DNA of 64,000 bases, taken from NCBI RefSeq assembly GCF_900184795.1, contig NZ_FXXN01000021.1, positions 1-64,000 on the forward strand. Reading direction: 5' to 3'. Below, one piece after another: positions 44,628-61,568 of the stretch. The notes under the pieces were generated by a model that saw nothing but the letters and a program-made list of their open reading frames with translations, had not been told where the DNA came from and ran no database searches. How positions within the stretch are numbered: position 1 is the stretch's first letter; each line of letters starts with the position of its first letter. The position numbers and the translations under genes were made by a program. This stretch comes from Magnetospirillum sp. 15-1. Lineage in GTDB: Bacteria > Pseudomonadota > Alphaproteobacteria > Rhodospirillales > Magnetospirillaceae.

Positions 44628-47321
44628 CTATCGGGAATCCTCGTCTTCCTGAACGATCCATGCGCACACCAACGAGAAGATCGCCGTGGTCATCCCTACG
44701 CCGCCCAGATGACTGTTGCCGGCGGCGATCCATGTCATGGGCTGCCCCATCACGGGAAGCAGGCCAAGAACGTTGCCCCAGGCGATGATCCAGTGGGTCA
44801 TCACCAGGACGGCACAGCCGTGCATGACAAATGACAGGGCGGTCCAGGCGAGATCTGCGTCGCCGCGTCTGCGATGTCCGACGGCTTGAACATCATCGGC
44901 AAGGCGGAAGAGAAGCCAGATATAAAATGTCTGGAGTGCAACCAGCGTCAAGCCCGCAACGCCGCCGAACCGGTTCAGCACAAAGGCGCCGATGAAGTCG
45001 TTCTGTACCTCTGGCAGGTCCATGATAGTGCCGCCGTTGATACCAAACCAAGCGCTGGCCCCAAACAACTCACCGTCGCGGATTCGATCCAAAGAGTTGA
45101 TAACCTGATATCCCTCTTCCCGATAAGCCGCAATGTCGGCCCAGACTTGGACGCGGGTCAGCTTGGTTTCCGGCAGATGAGGGATTGTCGCCACAGATTC
45201 GGGGTTGCTGTAGAAGAATGCCAGGGTCGCGACAGCCAGAAAGGTAAATAGTATGACCCCAAGCCGTATCCCCCCCTGCCCACGAAGCGTTGCCGCCCCT
45301 GCGGCTTGCAGTCGTCCCAGAAAATCGGCAGGTGGCAGCGGGATATCCCTTGCCGGAATCGACATCAAATCTCGGACACGCCATGCCCATGTCAAAACGA
45401 ATACGAAGAGAATAACGCCAGGGGAATAATCGCCGACACTGGTGAGGACTGCAGCAATCAACCCCAAAGCTAACAGAGCGAACCAGCCAAAGCGCAGGCT
45501 GCTGCGCAGAGGGTGGTTTCTGAAGCCCGTATCCCAATCCAAACGTGCTTCGCGGATTAAAAGCGCGACTTGGCCCATGAAAACGACAAGAACAACTTTG
45601 GCCAGTTCCGCCGGCTGAATCCCGCCGACACCTTGTTCACCTCCCGCCATCACTTCCCAGAACAAAAGTCCTACGACCAAAACCACCACCCCCAACCGAG
45701 CGATCACCCACAGTAAATCGCCGCCGTGAATATGCCGAATGCGGCCATTGCTCCACTCAATGCAATCACGCCACTTTTTATTAGGTGCGGCTACCCGCTC
45801 CGCAACTCTGGCCATGTGCTGAGGGGACAGCATGCCGAGGAGAGAGACCAATCCTGCGAATATGATCATGAGTTGCGCGGCACCAATGCCGAAACCGTGC
45901 CATCGAAGGTTAAGGGCACCGGCTCCGAGTTGGCTCAAGGTGATCATGCCGGCCAGGGCCAATCCGGTCGTCAGAGTCCAAACCTGCCCCCCGCGACCGC
46001 CAAGCTTCCCCTGTGACCATAGGGCAAGGGTCGCCAACCCCCAGCCGACTATCCACAGATAGCCCATTTCAGCCAGGCCCAATTGTGTACCGAATAGTCG
46101 GCACCAAAGAATCAGCATGGGCGGCGCCAGGCCTGCGGCACTCAAGATCAATCTGCCGTCCAGCCACGGCGTGGCACGCCGTCGATGGCGCCACCACGAA
46201 AGGCCGCAGACCAGAAAACAGGCGGCGGTGAGACAGGCAAGTCCGGGCAACAGCAAGGCGCCCAGGATCGATCCATCCCGCCCCCCGGCACTCCACAAGG
46301 CAGGCTCCGCAGGGGCTCGCGAAACCAGGGCACCCGCAGGTGGAAGAGGCAGGATTCGTCCGTCCTTGATCTCATCCGGTATAGGTGAGACCGGTGCCCT
46401 TACCTCCTCCTTGTACCAGAGCTCCTGATTGAAGGACGGCTTCAGGGTCAGGGCATCCTTGGTCCAGGACACTTCGTAATGAGTGCGGCCCAGAACAATG
46501 CGCTCGACCTTGCCGGTTTCCGAATCGTCCAACGGCAGGAAAATGTCGGAAAAGGTCTGCACTGCCCCATCGGCACGACGGAATGTGATGGCGGCGGCGG
46601 GGCGACCGGGCAGTTCACGCCCCGGCGCCAGATAGAAGGCTTCGCCAAGGCGGGTGACCAAGGCGGCTTCCAGGGTCCGTTCGCCGGTCAGCGGCCAGTT
46701 CTCGGGACAGGCGAAACTGCCGCCAAAGGAGAACAGGCGGGTTTCCGCACGCTTGGCGCCGAAAATGAAGTCATGCAGCCATTGCTTGGTCGCATTGCCG
46801 CGCAATTCACGGGCGCATTTATCCTCCGTCGGCAGGCCCGGTGTCTGATCCAGGGTGCCATTGGTCCAGCCGCCGACACGCCCACTGGCAGGTTCGCTCC
46901 AGGTCAAGGCATCAGCTGTAACGGTCTCAATATGGATACGGGCGTTGCCGATATCGATCTCGTCGCCGGCCATCAGTTTCCAGCGGTCGGGAAACAACGT
47001 TTTCCAGCGTGAGGTGCGGACGTCAATCTTCTTGTCACGAGCGACGTCGGCGATCCGCCAGCTACCGCCATCACAAATGATCCTCAGATGACCGGCGGCG
47101 GCGGCCCGTTTGGTCGGACGCTGGCCCAGTTCCCACCAGCCCAGGTCAATGGGATCGGCTTGGCAGGCAATGGTGCTGCCGCCTGCCTTTTGCGTCGGCG
47201 GCGACCGCTCACCCCCGCCGATCATTTGCGTATGCATCCAGGCGCCGAAGCCTAGCAGGGCGGCTATGGTCGCCAGCCAGACGAGTTCCACCGACGAACG
47301 TTGGTGCCTCAAAATCGACAT
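44628..47321 (-). CDS. SEDS-family (FtsW/RodA) polymerase with FHA-like N-terminus
   Basis: An 897-residue protein starting MSILRHQRSSVELVWLATIA. One N-terminal membrane segment is followed by a periplasmic or cytoplasmic region with an FHA-like beta pattern (GSWRIADVARDKK, LMAGDEIDIGNARIHIETV). Membrane segments begin again at about residue 330. The SEDS core is visible: GIQPAELAKVVLVVFMGQ (about 563), EVQNDFIGAFVLNRFGGVAG (about 774, the catalytic Asp region of FtsW/RodA), and LLPVMGQPMTWIAAGNSHLG (about 860). SEDS proteins polymerise lipid II into glycan strands together with a class B PBP, here encoded two genes upstream. It is the last gene of the operon. Confidence 0.85.
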   Translation of the reverse strand: MSILRHQRSSVELVWLATIAALLGFGAWMHTQMIGGGERSPPTQKAGGSTIACQADPIDLGWWELGQRPTKRAAAAGHLRIICDGGSWRIADVARDKKIDVRTSRWKTLFPDRWKLMAGDEIDIGNARIHIETVTADALTWSEPASGRVGGWTNGTLDQTPGLPTEDKCARELRGNATKQWLHDFIFGAKRAETRLFSFGGSFACPENWPLTGERTLEAALVTRLGEAFYLAPGRELPGRPAAAITFRRADGAVQTFSDIFLPLDDSETGKVERIVLGRTHYEVSWTKDALTLKPSFNQELWYKEEVRAPVSPIPDEIKDGRILPLPPAGALVSRAPAEPALWSAGGRDGSILGALLLPGLACLTAACFLVCGLSWWRHRRRATPWLDGRLILSAAGLAPPMLILWCRLFGTQLGLAEMGYLWIVGWGLATLALWSQGKLGGRGGQVWTLTTGLALAGMITLSQLGAGALNLRWHGFGIGAAQLMIIFAGLVSLLGMLSPQHMARVAERVAAPNKKWRDCIEWSNGRIRHIHGGDLLWVIARLGVVVLVVGLLFWEVMAGGEQGVGGIQPAELAKVVLVVFMGQVALLIREARLDWDTGFRNHPLRSSLRFGWFALLALGLIAAVLTSVGDYSPGVILFVFVLTWAWRVRDLMSIPARDIPLPPADFLGRLQAAGAATLRGQGGIRLGVILFTFLAVATLAFFYSNPESVATIPHLPETKLTRVQVWADIAAYREEGYQVINSLDRIRDGELFGASAWFGINGGTIMDLPEVQNDFIGAFVLNRFGGVAGLTLVALQTFYIWLLFRLADDVQAVGHRRRGDADLAWTALSFVMHGCAVLVMTHWIIAWGNVLGLLPVMGQPMTWIAAGNSHLGGVGMTTAIFSLVCAWIVQEDEDSR

Positions 47322-47403
47322 GGCAACCCCTTGCACTCTGTCTCTCCTTGCCCGGAGAGGTGGCGTTTCCTTTGAGATAATGCAGGGTTTACGGCTTCCG
47401 TAC

Positions 47404-49140
47404 TCATGGCAAAGCCCTGGCGAGACGAAACCCGATATCGCGAAACATTTGGTCCGGAGTGCTGCGGAAACGGGAGGCTGCACGCAGTTCGCTTGGTTGC
47501 ATGCACCAAGACCCACCTCTCAACACGCACCCACTGACTTTCCGTTCTTCTCCAAGGTGCATTGAGTTGAGTGCGTTAGCATAAACATCTGGATGCATTC
47601 CATATGCGTTCTCGTCATATGCATCCTCACACCATTCCCACACGTTGCCGTGCATCTGAAACAGACCCCACGGATTGGGGGCGAAACTGTCCACCGCCAC
47701 CGTCCGCTGCCGGGACACCCCCTTCGCCCCTTTGCCGAAGGTATGATTGCCTTGGTAATTCGCCTGGCTGGTCGAGATCTCGTCCCCCCACCAGAACTCC
47801 GTCTTGCTTCCCGCACGGCAGGCATATTCCCATTCCGCTTCCGTCGGCAAACGCCAACGATGCCGGTCACTGGGGCCGAAACCGCTCTGATCGTTCAGCC
47901 AGCCGATATAACCCTGCGCATCGTCCCAACTGACATTGATCACCGGAAGACGACCACAGCCCCAGCCCATATCAGTCGGGCGTGTCACCTTCTTCGCCGC
48001 AACGTACCGGTCGTATTCTTCAAACGTCACAGCGAAACGGCCAAAGCCAAGCCAGTCGTCGATCCTTATCCCCCGAACCACAGGACGTTCATGACCATAG
48101 CCCTTACCGCTTAGGTCCCCCATATCAAAAACACCCGGAGGAATCGCGCACAACTCCGGCGCCGCGCTGCCGTCACGCAATGTCGCAGAAATGATCTGGC
48201 TGGGCGTGTAGCCGCGAGCAGAAGGCGGGGCAACAGCAGGACTCTTATTGACCACCGCACCACCATTCGCCCTGGCGGCAGCAGATTGCGCCCCAAGCCG
48301 ATCTCGCCATGCCTCAACGCTTTGCGGGCGTTTCCCGCGTTTCAGCGCCAAGGCCCAATCGAGTCCTTCACACCAGGATTGCGAAAGCCGGTCCTGACCA
48401 ACCCGACCTGCCGGGATCAGCGGGTCCGTTTCGTCGTTGCTGAGGCAATCGACCCGTTCACTGGCATTGGGAACATTCGAGCCTATGGTCAGGGTGTAGA
48501 CGGTCATGGCCAGGGCATAAAGGTCTGACCATGGGCCAACCACCCCGCCTTCCTGTTCTGGTGGGGCGAAGGGCGGCGTGCCGGCGGCGTAGCGGGTGCC
48601 CGAACCGATCTCGCGCACCAGCCCGAAATCGATCAGCACCGGCACGTTCCAGCCGTCGCGGATCATGATGTTGTCGGGCTTGATGTCCAAATGCAGCAAG
48701 CCCTTGGCATGGACGTCGGCCAGCCCCTTGAGGATGCCGTCCAGCAGCGGCCGCAATACTGCCTCGGTCAGCCGCCCACCGCCGTCCATCGCCAGATCGC
48801 CCAGCGTCCGTCCGGGGATGAATTCCATCACCAGATAGGCGGTGCCGTTGGCCTCGAGATGGCGCATGACGCGGACGACATTGGGATGGCCGGCCAGTTC
48901 GGCCAGGGCGCGGCCTTCGCGCAGGAACTTGGTCCGGCAATGGTCGAACACCGCTTCCTTGCCGGGCTTGGCCTCCACCTGCCGACCGCGATGGACGACG
49001 ATATCCGCCGGGGCCAGTTCCTTGATCACCACCTCCAGCCCCAAGGTCGGATCGACGGCCTTGTAGGTGTTGGAAAAACCGCCACCGCCGATTTCCGCGA
49101 TGATCTCGTAATCGCCCAGTCGGTCACCGTTTCTTAGCAT
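47404..49140 (-). CDS. Ser/Thr protein kinase fused to FGE/SUMF1-like domain (1)
   Basis: A 578-residue protein. The kinase domain (about 10-280) has a glycine loop (EIGGGGFSNTYKAVDP), the Lys in LEVVIKELAPAD, a catalytic loop LLHLDIKPDNIMIRDG in which HLD replaces HRD, and an intact DFG (VLIDFGLVRE). A short linker leads to a formylglycine-generating-enzyme-like domain from about residue 333 (AIPPGVFDMGDLSGKG, HRWRLPTEAEWEYACRAGSK, NVWEWCEDAY, VLRGGSWCMQPSELRAASRF). HLD at the catalytic loop may mean reduced or RD-independent activity. The FGE-like part could bind ligands or modify proteins. Its start overlaps the PBP gene end by 17 bases. Confidence 0.85.
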   Translation of the reverse strand: MLRNGDRLGDYEIIAEIGGGGFSNTYKAVDPTLGLEVVIKELAPADIVVHRGRQVEAKPGKEAVFDHCRTKFLREGRALAELAGHPNVVRVMRHLEANGTAYLVMEFIPGRTLGDLAMDGGGRLTEAVLRPLLDGILKGLADVHAKGLLHLDIKPDNIMIRDGWNVPVLIDFGLVREIGSGTRYAAGTPPFAPPEQEGGVVGPWSDLYALAMTVYTLTIGSNVPNASERVDCLSNDETDPLIPAGRVGQDRLSQSWCEGLDWALALKRGKRPQSVEAWRDRLGAQSAAARANGGAVVNKSPAVAPPSARGYTPSQIISATLRDGSAAPELCAIPPGVFDMGDLSGKGYGHERPVVRGIRIDDWLGFGRFAVTFEEYDRYVAAKKVTRPTDMGWGCGRLPVINVSWDDAQGYIGWLNDQSGFGPSDRHRWRLPTEAEWEYACRAGSKTEFWWGDEISTSQANYQGNHTFGKGAKGVSRQRTVAVDSFAPNPWGLFQMHGNVWEWCEDAYDENAYGMHPDVYANALNSMHLGEERKVSGCVLRGGSWCMQPSELRAASRFRSTPDQMFRDIGFRLARALP

Positions 49141-51688
49141 TGCTCTTCTTTCCCTGGGGGGCGGTATCAGGAAGCACGGGCTGATAATTTCGCATCAGGT
49201 TGGCGATGACCGGGGCGCAGGCTGCGGAGCCATAGTCCTCCCAATGGGTGACCATGCAGGCGAAGGCCACTTTATGCGGGCCAAATTGCTGGCCTTGGCC
49301 GTCGATCCAGCCTGCCAGCCACCCTGTATTGTACTTTTCCAGTTGTGATGGATGGTCCTTCGACGCCACATTGGCGGTACCGGTCTTGGCCCAAAGAAAT
49401 GGGGTGAGCGGGCTGTTCGCGCCAAAGAACGACTTGGCTGTGCCCTTGGCCGGGACTGCCTTCATGCCGGCCCGTAGTTCCTTGAGAACGTTCGAATCCA
49501 GTTCCAGCTTGTCGGTCATTTCCCGAAGGGGCAGATCATCGCCGTCCAGGCGGGACACGAGGCGCGGCTGGATTGGCTTGCCTTGGGCAACGGTTGCGGC
49601 CACACGGGCGACCGCCAGCGGTGTCGCCGCGACGCCCTGGCCGTAGGCGGCGAACATCAGATCGTGCGTCAACAAACGCCCCTTCACCTTGGCCGCACTC
49701 TCTGCCAACAGGGACGAGGCGACCGAGTCCGCCCGGTAGGAAATGCCATCAACAAGGGGGAGACCGGGCAGAAGGTCATCCCCTCTCGGCTGCTTTGGAT
49801 CGTCCGCTTTGTCCAGGCCGATAACCTTCAGCACTGTGGAAAAATGGGTGTGTGGTACCGCCAGCGACGCTGCCTGGGCATCGGTGAGACCGGACCGGGC
49901 TTTGTCGAACTGATACGTACTTTGACCGTCGATAAGCTCCATCATGCGGACGAACCAGATGTTGAAGGATTCTGCCATGGCCTCGCACAGCCCCAGGTGC
50001 GGTCGCGCCCTGCCCCGACTACAGGGATCGGTGCGGAACGCCTGCATCAGGGATTCAACCCGGGCACCGTTCTTATCGTTGTGATAGGCACGGCCAACAT
50101 TCAGGTCTTCTAGAAGGGAGGGGCGATAATAGCCATAATCGTCACCATATTCGGGCTTACCGTCCTTCGATTTGGCGATTTCGTATCGACGCTGGATGCC
50201 GAGAGAACTGGTCAACGCCCCTTCGGATACGCCATCGACCTGTTCCTGAACGTTTGCGCCCTGCGCGGCAGCATGGGCGATGGCCAGTCCGGAAACCATC
50301 TTGAAGGTCGATCCGGGGGTGAAGTGACGCCCGGCGCCATGCCACGCCCGAACCTGAATGGGATCGAGTTCCGGATAGACCTGCTGGAACGACAACAGAT
50401 CCCAGGAATTGGCATGCTTGGGCACCACATGTCCGTGCCGTTCGGCCACGGCCAGGATGTCGCCGGTTTCAGCGTCCATCAGGACCAGCGACGCCATTCG
50501 GCCTTCGCGTTGCGGCACTGCGGATAGAGCGGAAGTTGCCGCTTTCTGCCAGCGGGTGTCGATCGTCAGCGTCGCCTGGTGTGATTCTCCTGAAGGAAGT
50601 CCCTGGGACAGGCGCTCGATCAAGGACCCCGTGAAAGAGCGACCGGGGCCGGTGACGCGGACCAGATCAAGGTTGCGAGCGGCTTCAGTCGCCTTTCCCT
50701 CCCCATCGGTCAACTCGGTGCCATCGCCCAAGGTCAACTGAACATCAGCGGTATCGCGATGATTGTGTTTCAGGTCACGCCAGGTCAGAACGCCTTGATC
50801 AAGGCGGATACGAATGCCGCCGACACTGTCGTCCGGGACTGATGTCGGCTGGAGAGCGATCTCGATCTTATTGACGCCCTGCACCAAGGGCAGCGGTCGG
50901 ACCATGGCATAGGCGCTTGGGGCCGTATCGCTGCTGCACCACTGCTTTTTCAGGATCCGTGCCAAATCGCCGAGGATTTCGCCCCCGTTTCGGCAGGGGG
51001 CACGAAGCTTAAAATATTGATCAATGGCAAGCTTGGCGCCGTTGACCGTAACCTCTGTCGGCGTGCCGACGACCTGAACGGTCAAGTCGGACTTTCCACT
51101 GACGGTGACTTCCCTTTTTAAGTGGATAATGCCGTTGACGCTGTGGGGGGCCGCCGCCACCCAATCACCCATGCCCTCGGGAATCCCCTCGATCGGCAGA
51201 TTGACGAAGCCCAGTGACAGGGGAACGTCGTCTGTGGTCGGCAAGGCCGTTCCATGCCCCCAGGCCGACCAGGACGCACCCGTGACGTCGGGGGGGGCGT
51301 TGTCACGCACGGCCGCGAAATGGTGAACAGCATTCCACTGCGCCACTTCGGCGATCAGGGTCTGTCCGGAATTTGTGCCGTACAGACGGCGAACCAGCTT
51401 GCGGGCGTGTTCTGCATCCTCGGCTGAAGAGGAGGATTGACCATTTTTCGCCAACAATACCCGCAACAGCCCCTCATCCTCGGCCGGGAGGTCGATCCGG
51501 TAGGAGACCGGATCAAACGTCGCGAGCTTGGAATCGATCAATTGGCTGAACAGCCGCGCAGCGGATCCCGGCGGCCGCTGTTTTGGATCGTCCTGGCGCT
51601 GATGGATATGAAGCAGCGCAATGGCGACAATCAGCACCGGAAGCAGCAACAGACCGCGCCGAAGGAAGAGCAGAAGCCGTGCGGGCAC
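49124..51688 (-). CDS. penicillin-binding protein (transpeptidase)
   Basis: An 854-residue protein with one N-terminal membrane anchor (LLLFLRRGLLLLPVLIVAIA) and a large periplasmic part. The transpeptidase motifs are complete: SxxK in TPGSTFKMVSGLAIAHAA (about residue 459), SxN in AESFNIWFVRMME (about 574), and KTG in FLWAKTGTANVASKDH (about 769). The length and the single anchor fit a class B, PBP2/FtsI-like enzyme that cross-links glycan made by a SEDS partner. The first 440 residues do not show the usual pedestal sequence that I know. Translation starts at GTG directly after the FHA-gene stop. Confidence 0.85.
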   Translation of the reverse strand: MPARLLLFLRRGLLLLPVLIVAIALLHIHQRQDDPKQRPPGSAARLFSQLIDSKLATFDPVSYRIDLPAEDEGLLRVLLAKNGQSSSSAEDAEHARKLVRRLYGTNSGQTLIAEVAQWNAVHHFAAVRDNAPPDVTGASWSAWGHGTALPTTDDVPLSLGFVNLPIEGIPEGMGDWVAAAPHSVNGIIHLKREVTVSGKSDLTVQVVGTPTEVTVNGAKLAIDQYFKLRAPCRNGGEILGDLARILKKQWCSSDTAPSAYAMVRPLPLVQGVNKIEIALQPTSVPDDSVGGIRIRLDQGVLTWRDLKHNHRDTADVQLTLGDGTELTDGEGKATEAARNLDLVRVTGPGRSFTGSLIERLSQGLPSGESHQATLTIDTRWQKAATSALSAVPQREGRMASLVLMDAETGDILAVAERHGHVVPKHANSWDLLSFQQVYPELDPIQVRAWHGAGRHFTPGSTFKMVSGLAIAHAAAQGANVQEQVDGVSEGALTSSLGIQRRYEIAKSKDGKPEYGDDYGYYRPSLLEDLNVGRAYHNDKNGARVESLMQAFRTDPCSRGRARPHLGLCEAMAESFNIWFVRMMELIDGQSTYQFDKARSGLTDAQAASLAVPHTHFSTVLKVIGLDKADDPKQPRGDDLLPGLPLVDGISYRADSVASSLLAESAAKVKGRLLTHDLMFAAYGQGVAATPLAVARVAATVAQGKPIQPRLVSRLDGDDLPLREMTDKLELDSNVLKELRAGMKAVPAKGTAKSFFGANSPLTPFLWAKTGTANVASKDHPSQLEKYNTGWLAGWIDGQGQQFGPHKVAFACMVTHWEDYGSAACAPVIANLMRNYQPVLPDTAPQGKKSNAKKR

Positions 51689-53590
51689 CTATTCCTCCAG
51701 TCGGAACAGATAGGCCCCGATCACGAACAAATCACCCGGCTGCAAAATCTTTTCACGGCCTTCGCGGATTTCGTACTCACCGGTCTTTTCGTAATGGTCT
51801 GCAACCGCGTCCCGATCCGCCTGCCCCCAGGTCTCCGGCGCCAGATTCTCCACGGTTCCGTCCTTGCGCACGATGATCAGCGGCACCGTGGTCGACAATT
51901 GCCGTAGGGTGATACCACCGCCTGCCGCTTGGCGGAACGCCGCGTGGAAACGCGACATCTGCAAATTGTCGATACTGATGCTCTTGCCGTCGGTCAGCGC
52001 CATGTTATCGAGTTCGCGGAAGGCTCCGAACTTGGCGCGGCCAATCCAGTTCCAATCGCCGGAAACCGTCATGTCGGACCCGGCGGCCACGGGAACGTAA
52101 CCGAAGAAGCGCTCCCGCAACGCACTCGGCGCCGCCAAAATCCGCACTGGAGTATTCCCCCCCCAGCTCAGTTTGGCGGGCAAGGCCCCGACCGGCTGCT
52201 CGTGGGCCATTCCTGGGGCCTGCCAGGTCACCTGATCGCTTCCCGCCGTGGACATCAACCGAAGGGTTCGGGCGGGATCCAGGGTACGGGCGGGGCGACC
52301 TTCCTCGTCAAAGGCGATGGTCCATGACCGGTGCGACCCGCCGGGGGACAAGCGCCACAACCCCACACCAAGATTGGAGAAGTGGGGGCCGTCATGCACC
52401 TCCACCTGCACATTAACCTCGGCAATTGCGCCATTCCTCTGGGGGCGGATGTCGAAGACCGTCGTCGTATGGTTGTGGCGGCGCTGGTCGGCATCGGCGG
52501 CCACCACCTCGGGTCGGCGCGGAGGCGTTTGGTGGGCCGCCTGTTCGCCAGACTTAGCCTGCCCGCCTGCCTGGCCCGCCTTGTTATCGGCCTTGGCCTG
52601 TTGCGCCCCGGCTTGCGCGGGCTGGGGCTGGTGGACGGAAGGATGCCGCAGGGCGATGCGGAATTCGTTGCCCTCGACCGGGCCGTCCTCGTCCTTGATT
52701 TTGATGGTGGCGATGACCAAACCGTTCTCTCGGCGTACCGTGTCGGTCGCTGCGTCAAGGCCGAAGAAGATGGTGTCCGGCGCGACCGCCTCGCCCTCCA
52801 TCAGTTTCTTCCAGTTGGCCACACTGATGGCGATCCCACCGTCAAAAGCGCTGGGCAGGATGTCGCCCACCGGAATCGAGGAATGCTCCATGCAGTGGGA
52901 CAGCAGGACGACCTGCTGGCTGGCGTAAAGACCGCCGGGGAATTCGATCATGCGGCCGAGATATTCCTCGGCATTCTGGCGTTTCATCATGCGCAGCGGC
53001 GCCGCCTCGACCAACTCGCCGTCGGCACCGCCGATCAGCAGATCGCCGAACGGCGCTTCGCCGTCGTCGGGGAGATAGATGGAAACTCCAAACTTGACGA
53101 TGATTCGCCCCTCGGCCAGCCCCTTGGTCGGAATGAAGGCGAATTTGGGTTTGTCACGCTCAAAGTGCTTCTGCTTCTTGCCGCAATGGATGTCATCCAG
53201 CCGGGCTTGACCGCGAAGCACGTGCTGTGGACCTGTGGCGGTGAAGCGGTTGTATTGAGATTCGCTGACATGGATGACGACTGAGGAGGCCGTATGGGCC
53301 ACGTTCTCATCAAGTTCATCGTTGCCCTTTTTTACCGCTGCGATCTTGATGATGGGATTGTCGCGGATCGCATCGAACAGGCTGGCCCACTTCTGACCCT
53401 GGGGGAGACGCCACTTGCCTTTGCCTCTCCACAGCGCATCGTAGTCGAAGGGATCCTCGACACCCTCGAACACCAGGGTGGTCAGGATCTGCCCTTGGTT
53501 GCCCAGCAACTTGGGCGCGGGTGGAACGACGACCGCAGGCTCGTCCTTGCCCTTATTTTTCCCCAAAGGGTCCTTCCAATTTAATGCCAT
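51689..53590 (-). CDS. large protein with C-terminal FHA-like domain
   Basis: A 633-residue protein with no signal peptide. The N-terminal 330 residues are of unknown, beta-rich type. A Gln/Ala-rich linker (AQAGAQQAKADNKAGQAGGQ) follows, then a second beta-rich region. The C-terminal ~95 residues look like an FHA domain: WIGRAKFGAF, ISIDNLQMSRFHAAFRQAAG, and ILQPGDLFVIGAYLFRLEE. FHA domains bind phosphothreonine, so this may be a docking protein for kinase targets. It overlaps the PP2C gene by 38 bases and abuts the PBP gene. Confidence 0.65.
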   Translation of the reverse strand: MALNWKDPLGKNKGKDEPAVVVPPAPKLLGNQGQILTTLVFEGVEDPFDYDALWRGKGKWRLPQGQKWASLFDAIRDNPIIKIAAVKKGNDELDENVAHTASSVVIHVSESQYNRFTATGPQHVLRGQARLDDIHCGKKQKHFERDKPKFAFIPTKGLAEGRIIVKFGVSIYLPDDGEAPFGDLLIGGADGELVEAAPLRMMKRQNAEEYLGRMIEFPGGLYASQQVVLLSHCMEHSSIPVGDILPSAFDGGIAISVANWKKLMEGEAVAPDTIFFGLDAATDTVRRENGLVIATIKIKDEDGPVEGNEFRIALRHPSVHQPQPAQAGAQQAKADNKAGQAGGQAKSGEQAAHQTPPRRPEVVAADADQRRHNHTTTVFDIRPQRNGAIAEVNVQVEVHDGPHFSNLGVGLWRLSPGGSHRSWTIAFDEEGRPARTLDPARTLRLMSTAGSDQVTWQAPGMAHEQPVGALPAKLSWGGNTPVRILAAPSALRERFFGYVPVAAGSDMTVSGDWNWIGRAKFGAFRELDNMALTDGKSISIDNLQMSRFHAAFRQAAGGGITLRQLSTTVPLIIVRKDGTVENLAPETWGQADRDAVADHYEKTGEYEIREGREKILQPGDLFVIGAYLFRLEE

Positions 53591-54443
53591 CGTTTCCCCC
53601 TATCGTCCCATCATCATTCCGCGCGGACGCATCCATCTGTTCCACCATCACCACGGCCACCGTGATGTTGTCGTGCCCCCCGGCATTCAGCGCCGCCTCG
53701 ATGCAGGCCTGGACCAACTTCTCTGGGGTGTAGCGACCGGCGACCATCTCCACCAGTGTGGAATGATCGATCTCTTTGCACAAGCCGTCGCTGCACAATA
53801 AAAACAGGTCATTGGCGGCAACTGGGAGAAAGGCCGAGGGGCTTTCACTGTCGATCTCGGGGGCGATGGTCAACCGGGCCTGTGGCCCACCGCCGAAGCA
53901 TGAGGTGATGACCGAAGCCATGGGGTGGTCGCGGGCCTGTTCCGGGGTGATCTGGCCGAGGTCGAGCAAAACCTGGATCACCGAATGATCGGTGGTCTGA
54001 TAAGCGGGGCCGCCGTTGCCGGGGAAGCGATAGAGGCGGCTGTCGCCGGCATAGAGGTGCAGGCATTCGCCATGGGCGAACAGGGCGGCGACGCCGGTAG
54101 CCCCCATCTTCATCAGCGAGAAGTCCTCGGAGATGCGGGCGCTGATGGCGTCTTGCGCACTGTCCATCGCGCTAACCAGCGTCTCGTAACGCTGGGGACG
54201 ATCCCCCGACAAATCCTGGTCGGCAGCCGACAGAATGGCATCGACGACAAGATTGGCGGCAATGCGGCCGCCGACATGGCCGCCCATGCCGTCCGAGAGA
54301 GCGACCAGCAGCCCGTCGCCCGAGGGTAGAGGTGCGGCGCGGGCTGCATCCTCGTTGACTTGGCGCACATGCCCCTGGTCGGTGCCCACTACCCAGTTCA
54401 GTCGGTAAGGGCCAAAGGGGGCGCTACCGGCTTCGATCTGCAT
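53553..54443 (-). CDS. PP2C-type Ser/Thr protein phosphatase
   Basis: A 296-residue PPM phosphatase. The motifs are NWVVGTDQGHVRQVNEDAAR, LLVALSDGMGGHVGGRIAAN (metal-binding Asp and GMGGH, about residue 51), YAGDSRLYRFPG, DLFLLCSDGLCKEIDHSTLV (about 217) and GGHDNITVAVVMVE (about 257). It would remove phosphate from targets of the three kinases in the operon. It resembles PstP of mycobacteria in context but lacks a membrane segment. Its start overlaps the FHA gene by 20 bases. Confidence 0.9.
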   Translation of the reverse strand: MQIEAGSAPFGPYRLNWVVGTDQGHVRQVNEDAARAAPLPSGDGLLVALSDGMGGHVGGRIAANLVVDAILSAADQDLSGDRPQRYETLVSAMDSAQDAISARISEDFSLMKMGATGVAALFAHGECLHLYAGDSRLYRFPGNGGPAYQTTDHSVIQVLLDLGQITPEQARDHPMASVITSCFGGGPQARLTIAPEIDSESPSAFLPVAANDLFLLCSDGLCKEIDHSTLVEMVAGRYTPEKLVQACIEAALNAGGHDNITVAVVMVEQMDASARNDDGTIGGNDGIKLEGPFGEK

Positions 54444-54834
54444 CGACTTCCATCTCCAGTTGGCCGAGACGGATCACATCGCCGACCGCCAGGGCTTTCG
54501 CCCCCAGATCGCCGGGCTTGGGTGGCTCCAGTTTCACCCTGTTGACGAAGGTACCGTTGCGGCTGCCCAGATCGCGGATCGACAGCGTGCCGTCGGCCCA
54601 GTCGATTTCCGCATGGCGGCGGGAGATCATGGCGCCGGGGGCCGGCTCCAATCCGGTGAGGTCCAGATCGGCCGTGCTGTGCGGCGGATCGGACCGGCCC
54701 AGCACGGCGCGCGGGAGGTCAAGGCGGAACACGGTTCCCGCCCTGGGCCCGTTGCGCAGTTTCAGGATGGCGGTGTCGGGTGACAGGCGTTCCCGCCGGA
54801 TCAAGTCACCGCCGCCAAGGGGGGGGAAAGCCAT
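54424..54834 (-). CDS. FHA-domain protein
   Basis: A 136-residue protein that is almost entirely one FHA domain. The phosphothreonine-binding residues are all present: AVLGRSDPPH (about residue 45), MISRRHAEIDWADGTLSIRD (about 71), and LGSRNGTFVNRVKLEP (about 90). The N-terminus carries RERLSPDTAILKLRN, which contains Thr and Ser residues that might be phosphorylated. It is comparable in size to mycobacterial FhaB without the long linker. Gap to the upstream kinase gene is 27 bases. Confidence 0.9.
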   Translation of the reverse strand: MAFPPLGGGDLIRRERLSPDTAILKLRNGPRAGTVFRLDLPRAVLGRSDPPHSTADLDLTGLEPAPGAMISRRHAEIDWADGTLSIRDLGSRNGTFVNRVKLEPPKPGDLGAKALAVGDVIRLGQLEMEVDADRSR

Positions 54835-54861: not shown

Positions 54862-56628
54862 TCATGGGAGCGTCCGGGCAAGACGGAATCCAGTGCGGTT
54901 GGTGTGTGCATCGGGGGGCAGTGCAGAACGGTGAGCGGAGCGGGTGCGATTTGGAGAGCTAGCCCATGTCCCCCCCCGCTTTACCCGCTGACCTGTGTAA
55001 TGTCTTTTGTCAGCATGTTGTGGAGTGACTGCCTGAGGATAAACCCAATTGTACGCTTCATATGATTCACTAAGATAAGCATCCTCACACCACTCCCATA
55101 CATTTCCAATTATTTGATAAAGCCCCCATTTATTATGTTGAAACCTGTTAGCTGCGACGATTTCCTTCCGGCACCGCCCCGTTTCCCCTTTATCATCGTA
55201 GTTCCCGCCATAATTATCTTTGCTTGTCGAAATTTGGTCACCCCACCAAAATTCCGTGCGACTCCCTGCTCTGCAAGCATATTCCCATTCCGATTCGGTC
55301 GGCAGGCGCCAACGATGCTTGCAATCAAAGCTAAATCCATTCAATTTATTCAGCCAATTAATGTAATCTTGCGCATCGTTCCAACTGACGTGGGTGACTG
55401 GAAACTGACCGCTCGCCCGTTCATGACAGCTGTTGGTTCGTATATTTCTCGATTTTACATATAAGCCATACTCATCACAGGTCACCGCAAAGCGACCCAG
55501 ACCATACCAATAATCAATTTTAACGCTATGGACTACGGGGCGTTGGTCTTCCAGACCTTTTCCGCTCAGATCCCCCATGTCGAACACCCCAGGAGGAATC
55601 GCGCACAATTCCGGTGCCGCGCTGCCATCTCGCAACGTCGCACGAATAATCTGGCCAGGGGTGTAGCGAGCAGAAGACGGGGCAACAGCAGGACTCTTAT
55701 TGACCACCGCACCAACATTCGCCCGGGCAGCAGCAGATTGCTCCCCAAGCATATCGAGCACCTGACCGGCGCTCACCCGCTTTTTCCACTCCTTGCTCAA
55801 ACACTCATCGACAATGCGGTCGAACGGTGGTGGCAGGCGCGTACCTCCGAAATCGGGGCGCCCCTCCAATATCTGGTACATCACCTGATACACCTCGCTG
55901 ACCCCATGCCCGAACGGCACCCGGCCGGTCAGCAGTTCGGCGATAATCACCCCCAGTGCCCACATGTCGCTGGCCGGGCCGACCTCGCTCTTGAACGCCT
56001 CGGGTGACATGTAGATCGGGGTGCCGATCTGGGCGGTACGCGTCAATTGACCGGGCTGGGACAATTCGCGAGCCAGCCCCAGATCGCCCAACTTCCACCG
56101 CTTTTGACCGGCGAACCATAGAATGTTGCCCGGCTTGAGGTCGCGGTGGACGATAGGATTGGGGCGGTCGTGCAGGAAGGCCAGCCCCCGACAAATATCG
56201 ACCGCCAGCTTACGGACCTCATCCACCGACATGCGCCCGCTGCTCATGCGCTTCAGCAGGTCGCACTCGGCCAGTTCCATTTCCATGAACACGCCATGGC
56301 GCCCGCGCAGATCGACGCTGCCGACGCCGTGGCGGGGTGTGGCTACGATACAGTCGTGCCGTTCCGCAGCCACCGTCATCAGTTCATTCAGCTTCCGCGT
56401 TAGGCCCGCGTGGTCGAGAACGAATACAATTTTGCCGTTCTCATCTTCCTCCTCTTCCTCGACCAGGAAAATCTTGACCGCCACCCGCGCATCGGGTTGG
56501 CCGCTCTGGCTCCGCGTCGCCTCGAACACCGAGCCGAATCCGCCGAACCCGCGACGGACGCCGAGGCGGTATTCGGTGTCACCATGGCCACCGCGGAATT
56601 TCAGACCCTCCAGGGATTTCCAATCCAT
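54862..56628 (-). CDS. Ser/Thr protein kinase fused to FGE/SUMF1-like domain (2)
   Basis: A 588-residue protein. The kinase domain has a glycine loop (RRGFGGFGSVFEATRS), an acidic insert (VEEEEEDENGKI), a canonical catalytic loop IVHRDLKPGNILWF (about 163) and DLG in place of DFG (KLGDLGLARELS, about 181). A PEAFKSEVGPASDMWALGV segment matches the APE region. An FGE-like domain starts near residue 346 (AIPPGVFDMGDLSGKGLEDQ) and ends GFRLARTLP. The linker is nearly identical to that of the paralogue at 47404-49140, so the two share recent ancestry or gene conversion. Its FGE part reads GGTWASSPNRTRSAHR, lacking the Cys seen in the paralogue. Confidence 0.85.
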   Translation of the reverse strand: MDWKSLEGLKFRGGHGDTEYRLGVRRGFGGFGSVFEATRSQSGQPDARVAVKIFLVEEEEEDENGKIVFVLDHAGLTRKLNELMTVAAERHDCIVATPRHGVGSVDLRGRHGVFMEMELAECDLLKRMSSGRMSVDEVRKLAVDICRGLAFLHDRPNPIVHRDLKPGNILWFAGQKRWKLGDLGLARELSQPGQLTRTAQIGTPIYMSPEAFKSEVGPASDMWALGVIIAELLTGRVPFGHGVSEVYQVMYQILEGRPDFGGTRLPPPFDRIVDECLSKEWKKRVSAGQVLDMLGEQSAAARANVGAVVNKSPAVAPSSARYTPGQIIRATLRDGSAAPELCAIPPGVFDMGDLSGKGLEDQRPVVHSVKIDYWYGLGRFAVTCDEYGLYVKSRNIRTNSCHERASGQFPVTHVSWNDAQDYINWLNKLNGFSFDCKHRWRLPTESEWEYACRAGSRTEFWWGDQISTSKDNYGGNYDDKGETGRCRKEIVAANRFQHNKWGLYQIIGNVWEWCEDAYLSESYEAYNWVYPQAVTPQHADKRHYTGQRVKRGGTWASSPNRTRSAHRSALPPDAHTNRTGFRLARTLP

Positions 56629-56637
56629 TGTCGGCCT

Positions 56638-57927
56638 CTATTTCCTGTCGTCGGGCTTGCGCGGTAGAATGTCGTCACGCATCAGGCCGAATAGTTCGGT
56701 GGTGCGGCGCTTCGAAATGTCGCCACTCTTGTCCAGTTCCTGCACGTTTTCCTTGGCCGCCACGGCAACGTCGGGGCGACCAGCCTGTTCCGCCGCTACC
56801 GCCATCTGCACAAAGAATTCCCGGGTGGCATTGCGGTCGGTGGAGGAGGTGGCCTTTTGGCCGCACAGGTTCATTTCCCACAGCAGGCGAGCCTGATCGA
56901 CCTCGCGGTCGCGTTTCTGCGATTCGGAAACCGAGGCGGTGTAGATGATGACGGCCTTCTGTTCGGCGGAGAAGCGGCCATCGGCGGATTCGATCCGTAC
57001 CAGGGCGACATCCGCCGGGGTCGAAGCCGGGCGCCCGCCCAACATTGGCGCCGCCATCGGGGGCGGTGGAACCTCGAACTCGATCAGGTAATCGGTGGGA
57101 CCACCGCTGGCCGCTGGGCCGGCGAACACCGGCGCACCTGCCGCCGACGGCATATCGAGGGGGGCATAAGTCGGGGCGATCCGGCAGAACGCCTTGGCCT
57201 TGGCGCCGTCCATCAGCGGACGTACGATTAGGCGCATGCCCTCGGTGGCCATGGATTGCGCCTCGGACAGACGGTGTTGCAGGCGGGCCGACAGCGTCGC
57301 CGGATCGGCCGCTAGCATGAAGCCGCCAGGCGCGATGTCTTCCAGAAAGGCGCCGTTGAAGTCCGAGGGATTGCCCAACCCCAACGCCCACAGCGACAGG
57401 CCCGAGGAGCGCAGCCGGTGCCCCCGTTCCTTGATGCCGTCCAGATCGGCGGCCTCGGTTAGCACCACGCCCTTGGCGGTGGTCGGCTCGCCGTCGGTGA
57501 TCAGGATGGCGACGCGCACCGTTCCGGCGGTATCGGGAACGGCCCGCCCCAACCAATCGAGTGCCAGATCCATGCGGGTAATGCCCTCGGCCGACAGGCG
57601 AGCCAACGCCTCTTCCGCCCTCCGCACCGCACCGGGACCACCGGCAATGCCGTCGAACAACGGCGTCACGGTTCCCGAATAAGCGGCCACCGACAGCCGG
57701 TCCTCGGGGCGCAGCTGACGCACCACCGCCAGTAACGCTTCCTTGGCCCGCGCCAGCTTGTTCTCGCTGCCCATGGAGGAGCTGACATCCAGAGCGATGG
57801 CCATGCGGGTGGGCAGCCCCCGCCCCGCCTGCACCGTCGGTGTCAGCCGCGCCCGCAGGAAGTGGGTCTGCGGCCGCTTGCGGTCGAGGTGGTTGGGGAT
57901 GTCCCAGTCGAGAGTCAGGTTGAACAT
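56638..57927 (-). CDS. von Willebrand A domain protein
   Basis: A 429-residue cytoplasmic protein. The vWA domain has a full MIDAS: RMAIALDVSSSMGSENKLAR (DxSxS, about residue 47), GITRMDLALDWL (Thr) and AILITDGEPTTAKGV (Asp). The C-terminal part is a beta-rich region followed by helices (SESQKRDREVDQARLLWEMN). vWA proteins next to PP2C and kinases are known from TerY-type triads, where they act as scaffolds. It lies between two kinase genes with gaps of 9 and 45 bases. Confidence 0.85.
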   Translation of the reverse strand: MFNLTLDWDIPNHLDRKRPQTHFLRARLTPTVQAGRGLPTRMAIALDVSSSMGSENKLARAKEALLAVVRQLRPEDRLSVAAYSGTVTPLFDGIAGGPGAVRRAEEALARLSAEGITRMDLALDWLGRAVPDTAGTVRVAILITDGEPTTAKGVVLTEAADLDGIKERGHRLRSSGLSLWALGLGNPSDFNGAFLEDIAPGGFMLAADPATLSARLQHRLSEAQSMATEGMRLIVRPLMDGAKAKAFCRIAPTYAPLDMPSAAGAPVFAGPAASGGPTDYLIEFEVPPPPMAAPMLGGRPASTPADVALVRIESADGRFSAEQKAVIIYTASVSESQKRDREVDQARLLWEMNLCGQKATSSTDRNATREFFVQMAVAAEQAGRPDVAVAAKENVQELDKSGDISKRRTTELFGLMRDDILPRKPDDRK

Positions 57928-57972
57928 AATTCCCCTCTACACATGACGATTATTGTTATGAAAAATTGTCGC

Positions 57973-59532
57973 CTACCAAGTAATTTTATCCGCAACACCC
58001 CTGTACTCAAGACAAGACGGCCTGATAAAGCCATCACTGCGAACATCTTCCATTCTTAGTGCATATTTCCCCCAAAGTCCGTATGGGGGCACTCTGTACT
58101 GATCAAAGCCAGCGCAGACATATAAGCTAACAGCAGCTTCATATTTTGTAATTGGGATGAGAAGATATCCTGCGCAGAGGACGGCAAACCCCATACTGAT
58201 CATGAGGCTAATTTTTCTACCCCCCTCTTTTTGCCCCCTGGCTCTTGAGGGTGGCTTAGCTCGCTGATACGCTGTTTGCTCTACGTTAGAGGGTGGGGCG
58301 GGAAATTGCTCCACTGGCGCCGGAGCGCGATGGCGGGCGTAAGCCCGCCCCAGGCCCCCCAGATCATTCGGGTTGTTCTTGATAACATCCGCGACATCCC
58401 TCAGATGGTTCATTATTCTGATGGTGTCTTCCGTACTTCGGCGAAGCGCCTCGTTCCTGGCCTCGTTGCCTCTCCGGATTTCAATCACGCGCGGGTCGTT
58501 GGCTATATCCGCATCGGATGGCCTTTTGTTTCCAAAACCTGGACCAGCACTTCTCCTCGCTGCGACGGTGACGCCCCCTTGAAGGACAAAAGGCGCCTCG
58601 ACCGCCCGCGGCGATGGATTGGGGACGCTATGTGACTCTGGCCGAGGCGGCGCATCAAGCGCCTCTTTGATCTGCCGGGCGGTCCAGCGTCTGCGCGCGT
58701 CCCGTTCAAGGCCGCCTCGAATGAGCCGATGGAACGGCTCAGGTAATTTGACACCACCAAAATCCGGAGCGGCAGACAGAACCTTGCGCATGACTTCCGT
58801 CTGTGAACCATCGAAAGGCATCCGGCCGGTCAGGATTTCCGACAACATCACCGCCAAGGACCAGACGTCCCAAGCCTGTGACTGTTTGCCGTCATAGGCT
58901 TCCGGCGGCATGTACAGATAGGTGCCCATAGCTTGGCTGCTGCGGCGATAGGCATCCTCCCCCAGCGCCCGCACCAATCCGAAATCAGCCAGTTTCCACG
59001 CCCCCTTCACCTTCAGGACGTTCTCCGGCTTGATATCCCGATGAATCAAGCGATCGGATTGCGTGGCGAAATATTCCAAGGCGCAGGTCATCGCCATTCC
59101 CACGTCTCGCGCCAGACTAAGACGTGACGGACTAAGGGCCGCAGCCCCCGTCAAAGCATCGATCTTGGTCCTGAGCGTGATCGGTCGGCCATTCGGGTCC
59201 AGATCCGCCAGTTCCATCGTCATGTATAGAATCGATGCGTTGATCTTCCTTACGTCCACTTGGCCGCAGTGAAAGGCCCTGACGATATGATCGTTGTCCA
59301 GATCGGGCAGAACTAGTAGTTCGTTCATCTGGTCCCTGGCGATCCTTGGATTGGGATCGGGGAAGATCACCTTCACCGCACGCCGCCCGGCCCCCTTGCG
59401 GTCACCGACAACGCTGTCATAGCGGAACACGCCGCCAAAGCTGCCGCCCCCGAGAAATTCCCCCAGCAGAATTTCGGGTGTTAGCTGCTCGTTGACCAGC
59501 AGTCGGCAAGTGATGTCGTGAGGACCGGACAT
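57973..59532 (-). CDS. membrane-anchored Ser/Thr protein kinase
   Basis: A 519-residue protein with an N-terminal kinase domain. It shows GEFLGGGSFGGVFRYDSVVG, the Lys in RRAVKVIFPDP, the canonical loop RLIHRDIKPENVLKVKGAWK (about 164), LADFGLVRALGE (about 183) and MGTYLYMPPEAYDG. A long charged juxtamembrane region follows. A single membrane segment ISLMISMGFAVLCAGYLLIP lies at about residue 449, and about 50 residues remain outside with Cys pairs. This layout resembles PknA/PknB-type receptor kinases, although the external part is small and has no PASTA repeats. It is the second gene of the operon. Confidence 0.85.
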   Translation of the reverse strand: MSGPHDITCRLLVNEQLTPEILLGEFLGGGSFGGVFRYDSVVGDRKGAGRRAVKVIFPDPNPRIARDQMNELLVLPDLDNDHIVRAFHCGQVDVRKINASILYMTMELADLDPNGRPITLRTKIDALTGAAALSPSRLSLARDVGMAMTCALEYFATQSDRLIHRDIKPENVLKVKGAWKLADFGLVRALGEDAYRRSSQAMGTYLYMPPEAYDGKQSQAWDVWSLAVMLSEILTGRMPFDGSQTEVMRKVLSAAPDFGGVKLPEPFHRLIRGGLERDARRRWTARQIKEALDAPPRPESHSVPNPSPRAVEAPFVLQGGVTVAARRSAGPGFGNKRPSDADIANDPRVIEIRRGNEARNEALRRSTEDTIRIMNHLRDVADVIKNNPNDLGGLGRAYARHRAPAPVEQFPAPPSNVEQTAYQRAKPPSRARGQKEGGRKISLMISMGFAVLCAGYLLIPITKYEAAVSLYVCAGFDQYRVPPYGLWGKYALRMEDVRSDGFIRPSCLEYRGVADKITW

Positions 59533-59552
59533 GCTATCAACGCCCCCTCGCT

Positions 59553-61568
59553 CTATCGAACATCCACCTGAAGCTGGCCGACGTCATCCACCCCCAGCGT
59601 CAAGGTCCGTCCTTCCAATGCTTTCGGATCATCCTGGTGCTGGAACACCCAGCGGGGGAAGGCGCGCTCGAACAGCATTTCCAGTTCGGTCTTTACCCGA
59701 CGGCCGCCGAAGGCCAGCTTGTCGCCTTCGGCCATCACCCGCTCTATCCAGTCCGAAAGCGACGGGTCAATGATGATCTGGCAGCGCAGCTTGGTCTGGG
59801 CGTTGTCGATGAACAGGCGACAGAACTTGTCGCAGATGCCGTGTACGAAGGCGGGGCGGAGGAAGTCAAACACCACAATGTTCTCGCCCAGCCGATTGAG
59901 AAGTTCCGGGCGCTTCAGGTCGTTGATGAAGTGCTGTTTTACGTAATGGTCGAAGTGGGCGGCGACGGCCTCGGGCGTCATGCCGTCGATGCCGACCTGG
60001 GCTAGTTGATCGCCCAACTGGGCGGCGCCGATGTTGCTGGTGAAGATGATGACGGCCTGGTTGAAGAATACAGTCTGGCCCTTGCCGTCGGTCAGGCGTC
60101 CGTCCTCCAGGATTTGGAGGAACTTGTCCAGCACACGGGGATGGCCTTTTTCCACCTCGTCAAACAGCAGGATGCTGTGGGGGCGCTCCTGCATTCGCCG
60201 AGTCAATTGGCCACCCTCGTCGTAGCCGACATATCCGGGCGGAGCGCCGATCAGCTTGGCGGCGGCGTGTTCCTCCTGGTATTCGCTCATGTCGAAGCGG
60301 GCGAAGGCGCGGTCGTCGCCGAACACGAATTCGGTCAGGGTCTTGGCCAGTTCCGTTTTGCCGACGCCGGTGGGGCCGACGAAGAAGAACACGCCCTTGG
60401 GCTTGGCGCTCTTGCTGCTGCCGGTCATCGAGACCCCCAGGCGCGAGGCGTAGAGCATATCGACCACCGACTGGATCGCCCTTGGTTGGCCGATGACGCG
60501 GCGCTGAAGCACCTCGCCGGCCTCGGCGATGCGTTTGGCGTCCACCTTCTCCCACGGATCGTCCTGCTCGCCGAACTTGAAATAATCCACCAATTGACGG
60601 GTGTGCCCCGGCAAGACCGGACGGCGGGCGATGTGGGAGGCACGGCGAAGCGCCTCAAGATCGATGACGGTGAAGCCTTCGGTCAGGTTCGCCAACTCTT
60701 CCACGGCCAACTCAAACTGGCTGGGCTCACGGGGACTGGGGGGCGTCTCAGACAGTTCGCCGCCGCCGAAGAAACCCAGGAATCCGCCCTGAGGGCGCAT
60801 AAAGGTGCGGGCGTAATGAACCCGCTCATCCTTGTCGGCCACGCCAACTTGGACCAGTGCAACGTGGGGGTTGTCGCGATACAGCCAGGCGGGAACTTTC
60901 TGGCCGTTAGTGGCCAGCAACACCACCGTGTTGCGACACCCCGATGCCCGGCCTTCCGGGATGACGGCGGCGTCCTCCATGCCACGACGCAGGGTGACCA
61001 GGGCCTGACGCTCGCCCTCGCCGTAATTCTCAGTCTGGACGGTCAGCAAATCGCCCAGTTCAATGATGGCCGCCACCGCTGATTGGGGCTGGCGCAAGGC
61101 GTGGCGGATTTGGGCGAAGGCTTCCAGCGGCGGAATGCGCTGGTTGGAAGCGGCAGCTTGAGGGGAGGCTCGGCCTGGAGCCTGACGAGGTGGGGGAGCT
61201 GTCGGATCGGCTGGAGCCGCCGGAGCGGCGGGTTGGGCGGCTTGAGGCTGGGCGGCCCCACGTTCCGAGGCAACCGAGCGACGGACGATCTCGAAGAATC
61301 GCGCCCGCATGTCGTCGGGCAAAGGCTGCTGATTCGGCTGCGCCGGGGAAGAAGCACGATGCTCGACCTCTTCAAAGCGGTAGCCATCAACCTCGTCATA
61401 ACTGGCTATGACCTCAAATCCCTGCTCGGCAAAGAAGTTGCGCAGGAACTGACCGACGGTGATGTAGCTGTCATTCCACAGGCAGTAGTCGAGCACATTG
61501 CCGTGCAGCACGACGTGCTTGCGCCGCAACACGGTCGTCTGGAACTCCCGAATCCAGGCAGAATTCAT
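59553..61568 (-). CDS. ClpB/ClpA-like AAA+ protein (single D2-type module)
   Basis: A 671-residue protein. The N-terminal ~150 residues are unique (MNSAWIREFQTTVLRRKHVV). A Pro/Ala/Gln-rich linker precedes a degenerate P-loop-like region without Walker A. The C-terminal AAA+ module is canonical for ClpB/HslU-type: Walker A FFVGPTGVGKTELAKTLTEF (about 399), pore loop GAPPGYVGYDEGGQLTRRMQ (about 446), Walker B SILLFDEVEKGHPRVLDKFL (about 469), sensor IIFTSNIGAAQ. It is not ClpV, because the ClpV N-terminus is absent. Start 61568 has GGGAGGGGGG just upstream; an ATG at 61607 is the alternative. It may unfold or remodel complexes of this locus and heads the minus-strand operon. Confidence 0.8.
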   Translation of the reverse strand: MNSAWIREFQTTVLRRKHVVLHGNVLDYCLWNDSYITVGQFLRNFFAEQGFEVIASYDEVDGYRFEEVEHRASSPAQPNQQPLPDDMRARFFEIVRRSVASERGAAQPQAAQPAAPAAPADPTAPPPRQAPGRASPQAAASNQRIPPLEAFAQIRHALRQPQSAVAAIIELGDLLTVQTENYGEGERQALVTLRRGMEDAAVIPEGRASGCRNTVVLLATNGQKVPAWLYRDNPHVALVQVGVADKDERVHYARTFMRPQGGFLGFFGGGELSETPPSPREPSQFELAVEELANLTEGFTVIDLEALRRASHIARRPVLPGHTRQLVDYFKFGEQDDPWEKVDAKRIAEAGEVLQRRVIGQPRAIQSVVDMLYASRLGVSMTGSSKSAKPKGVFFFVGPTGVGKTELAKTLTEFVFGDDRAFARFDMSEYQEEHAAAKLIGAPPGYVGYDEGGQLTRRMQERPHSILLFDEVEKGHPRVLDKFLQILEDGRLTDGKGQTVFFNQAVIIFTSNIGAAQLGDQLAQVGIDGMTPEAVAAHFDHYVKQHFINDLKRPELLNRLGENIVVFDFLRPAFVHGICDKFCRLFIDNAQTKLRCQIIIDPSLSDWIERVMAEGDKLAFGGRRVKTELEMLFERAFPRWVFQHQDDPKALEGRTLTLGVDDVGQLQVDVR

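Follow-up and report, generated by a model that had tools for sequence, protein, structure and literature searches.

A kinase-linked SEDS–class B penicillin-binding protein pair with an FHA-fold partner in Magnetospirillum sp. 15-1, a candidate accessory peptidoglycan synthase of Gram-negative bacteria

Gene organization of the array

The DNA analyzed in this study, referred to as the window, is a stretch of 64,000 nucleotides from Magnetospirillum sp. 15-1 (assembly GCF_900184795.1, contig NZ_FXXN01000021.1, positions 1–64,000). It contains a gene array (44628..61568) that includes the genes for a SEDS-family polymerase and a class B-type penicillin-binding protein (PBP). A previous reading made from the DNA letters alone (the sequence-only reading) had described ten genes coding for kinases, a PP2C phosphatase, FHA and vWA proteins, an AAA+ ATPase, a PBP, and a SEDS protein, and domain matches confirmed this composition. 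C21, C13, and C25 are contig labels of the same genome (G000), and L-numbers are labels of loci in the compared genomes.

All ten genes are located on the minus strand. The first in coordinate order encodes the SEDS protein of about 900 residues (44628..47336). It is followed by the genes for FGE-kinase 1 (47404..49140), a Ser/Thr kinase with an FGE/C-type-lectin-like domain (Pkinase, 103.6 bits; FGE-sulfatase, 159 bits) and without a transmembrane helix (TM) according to hydropathy; the PBP (49124..51688), consisting of 854 residues with one TM predicted by hydropathy; and a putative soluble adaptor, named FHAx, composed of an N-domain and a C-terminal FHA fold (51689..53590). The PP2C-type phosphatase (53553..54443; PF13672, 41 bits) has SDGMGGH and DNIT motifs, and the small FHA protein (54424..54834; PF00498, 58 bits) has a complete GR / SRRH / NG motif. 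FGE-kinase 2 (54862..56628; Pkinase, 133 bits; FGE-sulfatase, 151.5 bits) also lacks a TM by hydropathy. The vWA-domain protein (56638..57927; PF13519, 47 bits) belongs to a small family and has DxSxS, and STK3 (57973..59532; Pkinase, 101 bits) is a membrane Ser/Thr kinase with one TM (residues 441–459) predicted by hydropathy after the kinase domain. The last gene (59553..61568) encodes an AAA+ ATPase that resembles ClpB and whose single strong AAA_2 module is C-terminal (PF07724, 170 bits). A divergent neighbor on the plus strand (62886..63536) encodes a single-cluster 4Fe-4S, radical-SAM-like protein (PF13353, 114.7 bits).

The SEDS protein and its PBP

The SEDS protein comprises one TM, a beta domain (residues ~40–345), which is predicted to be periplasmic, three extra TMs, and a 10-TM FtsW/RodA core (~436–896). 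It matched PF01098 with 64 bits (cut-off, 26.4), and the predicted model gave a fold match to the 10-TM FtsW/RodA fold. In an alignment to E. coli MrdB that had a weak E-value, its putative catalytic residue, Asp776 (numbering of the 898-residue protein), was in register with the DF of that protein, and the position was Asp in 75 of the 76 aligned family rows. In RodA, the catalytic Asp belongs to the HTDF motif of an extracellular loop. The protein scored below the RodA/FtsW equivalog cut-offs (TIGR02210, 60.7 of 336.7 bits; TIGR02614, 41.6 of 337.5 bits). In the PBP, the TM and a long N-terminal region precede a transpeptidase domain with SxxK (S460), SxN (574), and KTG (768) motifs. The protein is assigned to class B because these motifs are intact and PF00905 (69.9 bits) is the sole Pfam match, so that there is no glycosyltransferase domain. 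It scored below the PBP2 (MrdA) equivalog cut-off (TIGR03423, 82.9 of 455 bits).

Elsewhere in the genome, two SEDS matches each have a PBP match nearby (C13: 66393–67427 and 67598–68617; C25: 108833–109864 and 102417–103256), and the pair in the window is thus the third. From their arrangement, we infer that the other two are RodA/PBP2 and FtsW/FtsI. Among 56 genomes of the host family, 18 of them of the same genus, a family-level SEDS score was obtained only for the own genome (806 bits), and the remaining matches, including its second one, scored 48 bits or less. In a sample of the host class, 5 of 385 genomes matched the window protein at 1e-20. The SEDS gene is sporadic in its occurrence and accessory.

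When 84,980 species genomes were scanned, 118 pattern matches came up; 91 were relatives, and 80 of these were kept as loci. They belong mostly to Alpha- and Gammaproteobacteria, plus some Oxalobacteraceae and Desulfobacteria; members in metagenome-assembled genomes (MAGs) labeled Phycisphaera and Synechococcaceae may reflect binning errors. Two MAGs carried three family SEDS copies each at separate loci (L021, L026, and L033; L029, L047, and L061). Plasmid searches with the window SEDS protein, which returned only two Listeria RodA-type matches, and with a Hoeflea SEDS protein found no relatives of the system. In a quick phylogenetic tree, in which many FtsW/RodA rows fill less than half of the columns, long branches meet between the groups, and actinobacterial SEDS proteins were left out, the 74 family rows (window included) were separated from 25 FtsW/RodA rows by a branch with 100% SH-aLRT support. 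The core belongs to a distinct enzyme family, with at least 80 loci, that takes its own side of the tree.

Conservation and co-inheritance of the core

Components were counted in the 53 of the 80 loci in which the SEDS gene is flanked by 4 kb or more on each side, the other 27 being too short to score. A PBP reaching the transpeptidase end was found in 36 of them (five with broken active-site motifs and one split over open reading frames [ORFs]), a PBP stub in eight, FHAx in 45 (41 in the main scan and four Bosea loci by tblastn), and a kinase in 27. The three core proteins were all present in 33 sets (window included), which were reduced to 19 by requiring a SEDS distance of >0.25. The correlations between their distance matrices were 0.943 (SEDS–PBP), 0.959 (SEDS–FHAx), and 0.913 (PBP–FHAx), and none of 2000 permutations was as high. 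SEDS, PBP, and FHAx are co-inherited, with a contribution of shared vertical descent.

The independent Gram-negative SEDS–PBP unit that the sequence-only reading had proposed, in linkage with kinases and with a protein of FHA fold, thus exists and is co-inherited, as seen from the 80 loci, the distance matrices, and the kinase linkage described below; the absence of a conserved unit and of co-inheritance, either of which it had regarded as fatal, does not apply to the core. Its view of the ten genes as one conserved unit was not supported, because AAA+ and vWA genes were found in none of the 80 related SEDS loci, including the 53 well-flanked ones. PBP, FHAx, and the kinase recur beside the SEDS gene, whereas an FGE domain occurs in 11 of the 80 loci and PP2C in 5 of the 53. 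The FGE domains are therefore optional, PP2C is a less regular companion of the SEDS core, and what is conserved comprises fewer than ten genes, with a broader distribution than the earlier reading could tell.

Kinase linkage and the FHA residues of FHAx

A Pkinase match was located within about 10 kb of the family SEDS gene in 13 of 20 hand-picked genomes, compared with 1.0 expected under uniform placement; relatedness is not taken into account in the corresponding P value of 1e-15. A TM is predicted for 25 of the 39 kinase ORFs found in SEDS loci, and likewise for STK3 in the window. A Pfam scan gave no PASTA match in the three window kinases, and the two that were scanned with the PknB_PASTA model scored 88 and 98.8 of 450 bits.

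No kinase was found in the 17 SEDS loci of the rhizobial branch, and three of the six genomes searched from this branch (two Hoeflea and one Puniceibacterium) had no Pkinase match anywhere. In 15 loci of the branch (L072, L073, L075, L078, L080–L086, L088, L089, L092, and L093), a gene for a large Hsp70/actin-like protein lies upstream of FHAx and heads the operon. Five of eight members gave a weak HSP70 match (best E-value, 0.0033), and a match to DnaK had an E-value of 0.001. SrfB was rejected as the identity of this gene, since the members scanned gave no Pfam match above cut-off and no NCBIfam match, and only the weak HSP70 one. Ten loci of the rhizobial version have, after the SEDS gene, a family resembling a coiled-coil TM protein.

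FHAx consists of an N-domain (residues 30–315), a linker (321–373), and a C-terminal FHA fold (about 400–633) with GR and SRFH. FHA domains bind phosphothreonine through the Arg of GR and the Ser of SRxH. If FHAx reads kinase marks, these residues should be kept where kinases occur and be free to decay elsewhere. This prediction was examined in 51 aligned rows, leaving out L090 (a fused ORF), FHAx pieces of <400 residues, and the four Bosea loci. Both residues were kept in 24 of the 26 scorable kinase-linked rows (27 kinase-linked, window included), in 8 of 10 non-rhizobial rows without a kinase in the stretch examined, and in 0 of 14 rhizobial rows; the independent changes behind this pattern are few. 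The N-domain residues D46, G168, P174, Y222, and Q225 were conserved across the two branches (29 and 5 rows), which is consistent with an N-domain that would face SEDS and PBP and an FHA domain that would face the kinase. Regarding FhaA_N, the N-domain gave no Pfam match in 34 members, and its best PDB profile match had an E-value of 0.18.

Decay of the transpeptidase

Active-site motifs were intact in 37 of 43 long family PBPs and broken in six, all from the Competibacteraceae clade (L049, L052, L053, L057, L060, and L094). In 11 loci (L040, L041, L044, L045, L046, L048, L051, L055, L056, L058, and L062), only the N-terminal ~138 or ~324 of the 840 model positions of the PBP remain, immediately ahead of the SEDS gene, and a second PBP-profile match was found in none of them. 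The Competibacteraceae stubs are 160–380 residues long. The sister loci L047, L050, L061, L066, and L067 have an intact PBP. On a 30-locus tree with 16 of the 17 decayed loci (L062 was omitted as fragmented), the decay needs at least three changes (bootstrap, 2–3), of which strongly supported branches force only one. The SEDS Asp was kept in all 16. The broken motifs and the N-terminal stubs show that the Competibacteraceae clade keeps the N-terminal part of the PBP when catalysis is lost.

A proposed phosphorylation-switched accessory synthase

The reading that we prefer, with a probability of roughly 0.6, is that the window encodes a third SEDS–class B PBP pair, co-inherited with an FHA-fold protein and usually kinase-adjacent outside the rhizobial branch, and that this pair is a predicted accessory peptidoglycan synthase likely to be switched by phosphorylation via FHA. 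The switch itself is a proposal to which the pattern of FHA residues lends some support. In the proposed mechanism, STK3 at the membrane and the two FGE-kinases in the cytosol would respond to a ligand from the envelope or from inside the cell by phosphorylating either themselves or a partner. The FHA domain of FHAx would dock on the phosphothreonine, the N-domain would hold or release the SEDS–PBP pair, and PP2C would reset the switch. SEDS would polymerize lipid II and the PBP would crosslink the product, with the N-terminal part of the PBP possibly serving to activate SEDS. The AAA+/4Fe-4S cassette and the vWA gene are local additions that might serve to remodel the complex.

Several observations weigh against this proposal. 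The well-flanked loci include nine with no PBP in the locus and eight in which FHAx was not found, indicating that these parts are dispensable, and PP2C was detected in only the five mentioned above. The 20 genomes of the kinase-linkage test were chosen for contig size and spread rather than at random, and relatives among them are not independent. The Burkholderiales loci L070, L076, L090, and L091 have kinases without a predicted TM, and no PBP was found there. Two Oceanospirillaceae loci, L064 and L071, have no FHA motif despite a kinase, and L065, in which a kinase was not detected, also has none. In the SEDS tree, the branch leading to the window row is long.

A broader proposal, which we hold tentatively and at slightly less than even odds, is that the family forms a third branch of bacterial SEDS synthases, belonging to neither the elongasome nor the divisome. 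Its fixed core would be SEDS, the PBP N-domain, and the FHA-fold adaptor; its inputs would be exchangeable (a kinase in most lineages and the Hsp70/actin-like ATPase in the rhizobial branch), and its transpeptidase would be optional and discarded by many Competibacteraceae, giving a signal-gated glycan polymerase.

If the preferred reading is true, Gram-negative bacteria would have a machine for building the wall that protein phosphorylation is predicted to switch, phosphorylation-gated peptidoglycan synthesis would no longer be a speciality of actinobacteria and firmicutes, and an entire clade of SEDS proteins, with an FHA adaptor of their own, would open to study. Loci in which the polymerase is intact but the transpeptidase has decayed or been lost offer a natural experiment on which part of a class B PBP SEDS needs, and the joint absence of the kinase and the FHA phosphothreonine residues offers another on the role of the FHA protein in such a complex.

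Comparison with known systems and alternative readings

RodA–PBP2 and FtsW–FtsI resemble the window pair in the SEDS fold, the catalytic Asp, the SxxK/SxN/KTG transpeptidase, and the clustering of SEDS and PBP, whereas the window family misses the equivalog cut-offs, lies on a separate side of the tree, has FHAx as a partner, and shows transpeptidase decay in one clade. In the Type VI secretion set PpkA-PppA-Fha-ClpV, a kinase, PP2C, FHA, and a ClpB-like ATPase occur together. The same four parts are present in the window, but the AAA+ protein missed the ClpB and ClpV cut-offs (ClpV TIGR03345, 196.5 of 884.95 bits), and no Type VI structural gene is among the ten. The nearest analogue is the actinobacterial pknA-pknB-pstP-rodA-pbpA-fhaA-fhaB cluster, to which pstP belongs and which shares SEDS, a class B PBP, Ser/Thr kinases, FHA, and PP2C with the window. 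The window differs in its far-diverged SEDS protein with an extra N-domain, which belongs to a third pair rather than being the main RodA; in the lack of a PASTA match; in an FHAx N-domain that Pfam did not recognize as FhaA_N; and in the additional FGE domains, vWA, and AAA+. Excerpts of PMC3989709 describe the mycobacterial/corynebacterial operon of kinase, RodA, PbpA, and FHA protein and the FHA partners. In the open-access literature, no paper was found whose title or abstract opening describes this gene set or the Gram-negative family.

A conflict or defense system, in which the FGE-kinases would sense an invader, AAA+ and vWA would assemble a complex, and the SEDS–PBP effector would alter or block the wall, seems unlikely. 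The two FGE regions match at 85–100% of residues over the first 60 positions, with almost identical linkers, and at 25–40% over a C-terminal block at positions 220–280, with further blocks of low identity around 100 and 180, as if they had diverged on the ligand side. Both domains end like the variable proteins of diversity-generating retroelements (DGRs). An active DGR was rejected, since the own genome (99.98% complete) has no reverse transcriptase match (PF00078, 0 matches) and the window scan revealed no template repeat. The divergence of the FGE domains and the sporadic distribution of the SEDS gene would fit a conflict role, as would PADLOC scores of the kinase domains against the PD-T4-6 and mad6 models and of the AAA module against PDC-M37B and DolB; however, these matches are at the domain level, and none was obtained for SEDS, PBP, FHAx, PP2C, FHA, or vWA. 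The conserved core, moreover, is without AAA+ and vWA and usually without FGE. In favor of this reading, the conflict systems described in excerpts of PMC7159879 and PMC10907252 include FGE, vWA, kinase, and peptidoglycan-associating parts. The VMAP / vWA-MoxR ternary systems of PMC7159879 have vWA, AAA+, kinase, FGE, and some peptidoglycan-associating parts in common with the window, but the window AAA+ is of the Clp type, scoring best as AAA_2 and not MoxR, and the text of PMC7159879 contains neither 'FtsW' nor 'penicillin'.

It is similarly doubtful that SEDS makes a polymer other than crosslinked peptidoglycan, such as an uncrosslinked glycan or a surface polysaccharide, with the PBP kept only as a scaffold.

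The AAA+ gene has relatives in other settings. An Aristaeella plasmid that also has kinases, FHA, and PP2C carries one adjoining a 4Fe-4S protein gene, and a single stretch of a Geminocystis plasmid holds an AAA+ relative, a 4Fe-4S protein, and a protein homologous to the neighbor at C21:63533–64867. In one Competibacteraceae genome, an AAA+ relative accompanied by a kinase and a 4Fe-4S protein lies on the same contig as the SEDS gene, at a distance of about 145 kb, and a second such genome has an AAA+ relative with a kinase. No SEDS gene was seen beside the AAA+ relatives on these plasmids and genomes, and among the AAA_2 matches listed in the searched genomes, none was near a SEDS match. Relatives of the window 4Fe-4S protein lie near an AAA+ gene elsewhere (L125, L126, and L191). 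Together with the absence of AAA+ and vWA from the other SEDS loci, these results suggest that the array is a signaling cassette joined to a wall unit. That the two are an FHAx-PBP-SEDS unit and a kinase/AAA+/4Fe-4S cassette merely abutting without a shared function, as their separate occurrence would allow, is improbable given that the genes interleave, with FGE-kinase 1 between PBP and SEDS and PP2C overlapping both FHAx and FHA, and that kinase linkage recurs at other SEDS loci. This interleaving favors cooperation between the cassette and the wall unit here.

For the vWA protein, nine relatives at 32–68% identity were found, and five further matches were far weaker. In the phylum, 44 of 398 genomes passed 1e-20, and only the own genome exceeded 105 bits; no other array gene was found around the second-best match (G609). 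Plasmid searches with the vWA protein and with one of its relatives (four generic vWA matches) gave no relatives of the system, and viral contigs gave no match to the vWA family.

Flanking regions

Beyond the window edge, C21:64887–73110 encodes a PP2C, an M50B-like peptidase, another kinase, and two FGE-kinases, extending the signaling island; FGE-kinases with a predicted TM lie at C21:64887–70030. Further downstream (G000:C21:80001–120000; L011 and L012), a run of ORFs resembles phage structural and terminase genes by eye and is probably a prophage. On the other flank, the window encodes a protein with an autotransporter beta-domain (35293–38262; 219 bits to PF03797) and a RepA-like AAA_25 protein (42535–44151). 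Near-identical direct and inverted repeats (610-nucleotide arms, 98%) at 1827–2436, 5874–6156, and 9746–10355 flank a low-GC stretch at 8–10 kb and are likely insertion sequences or duplicates.
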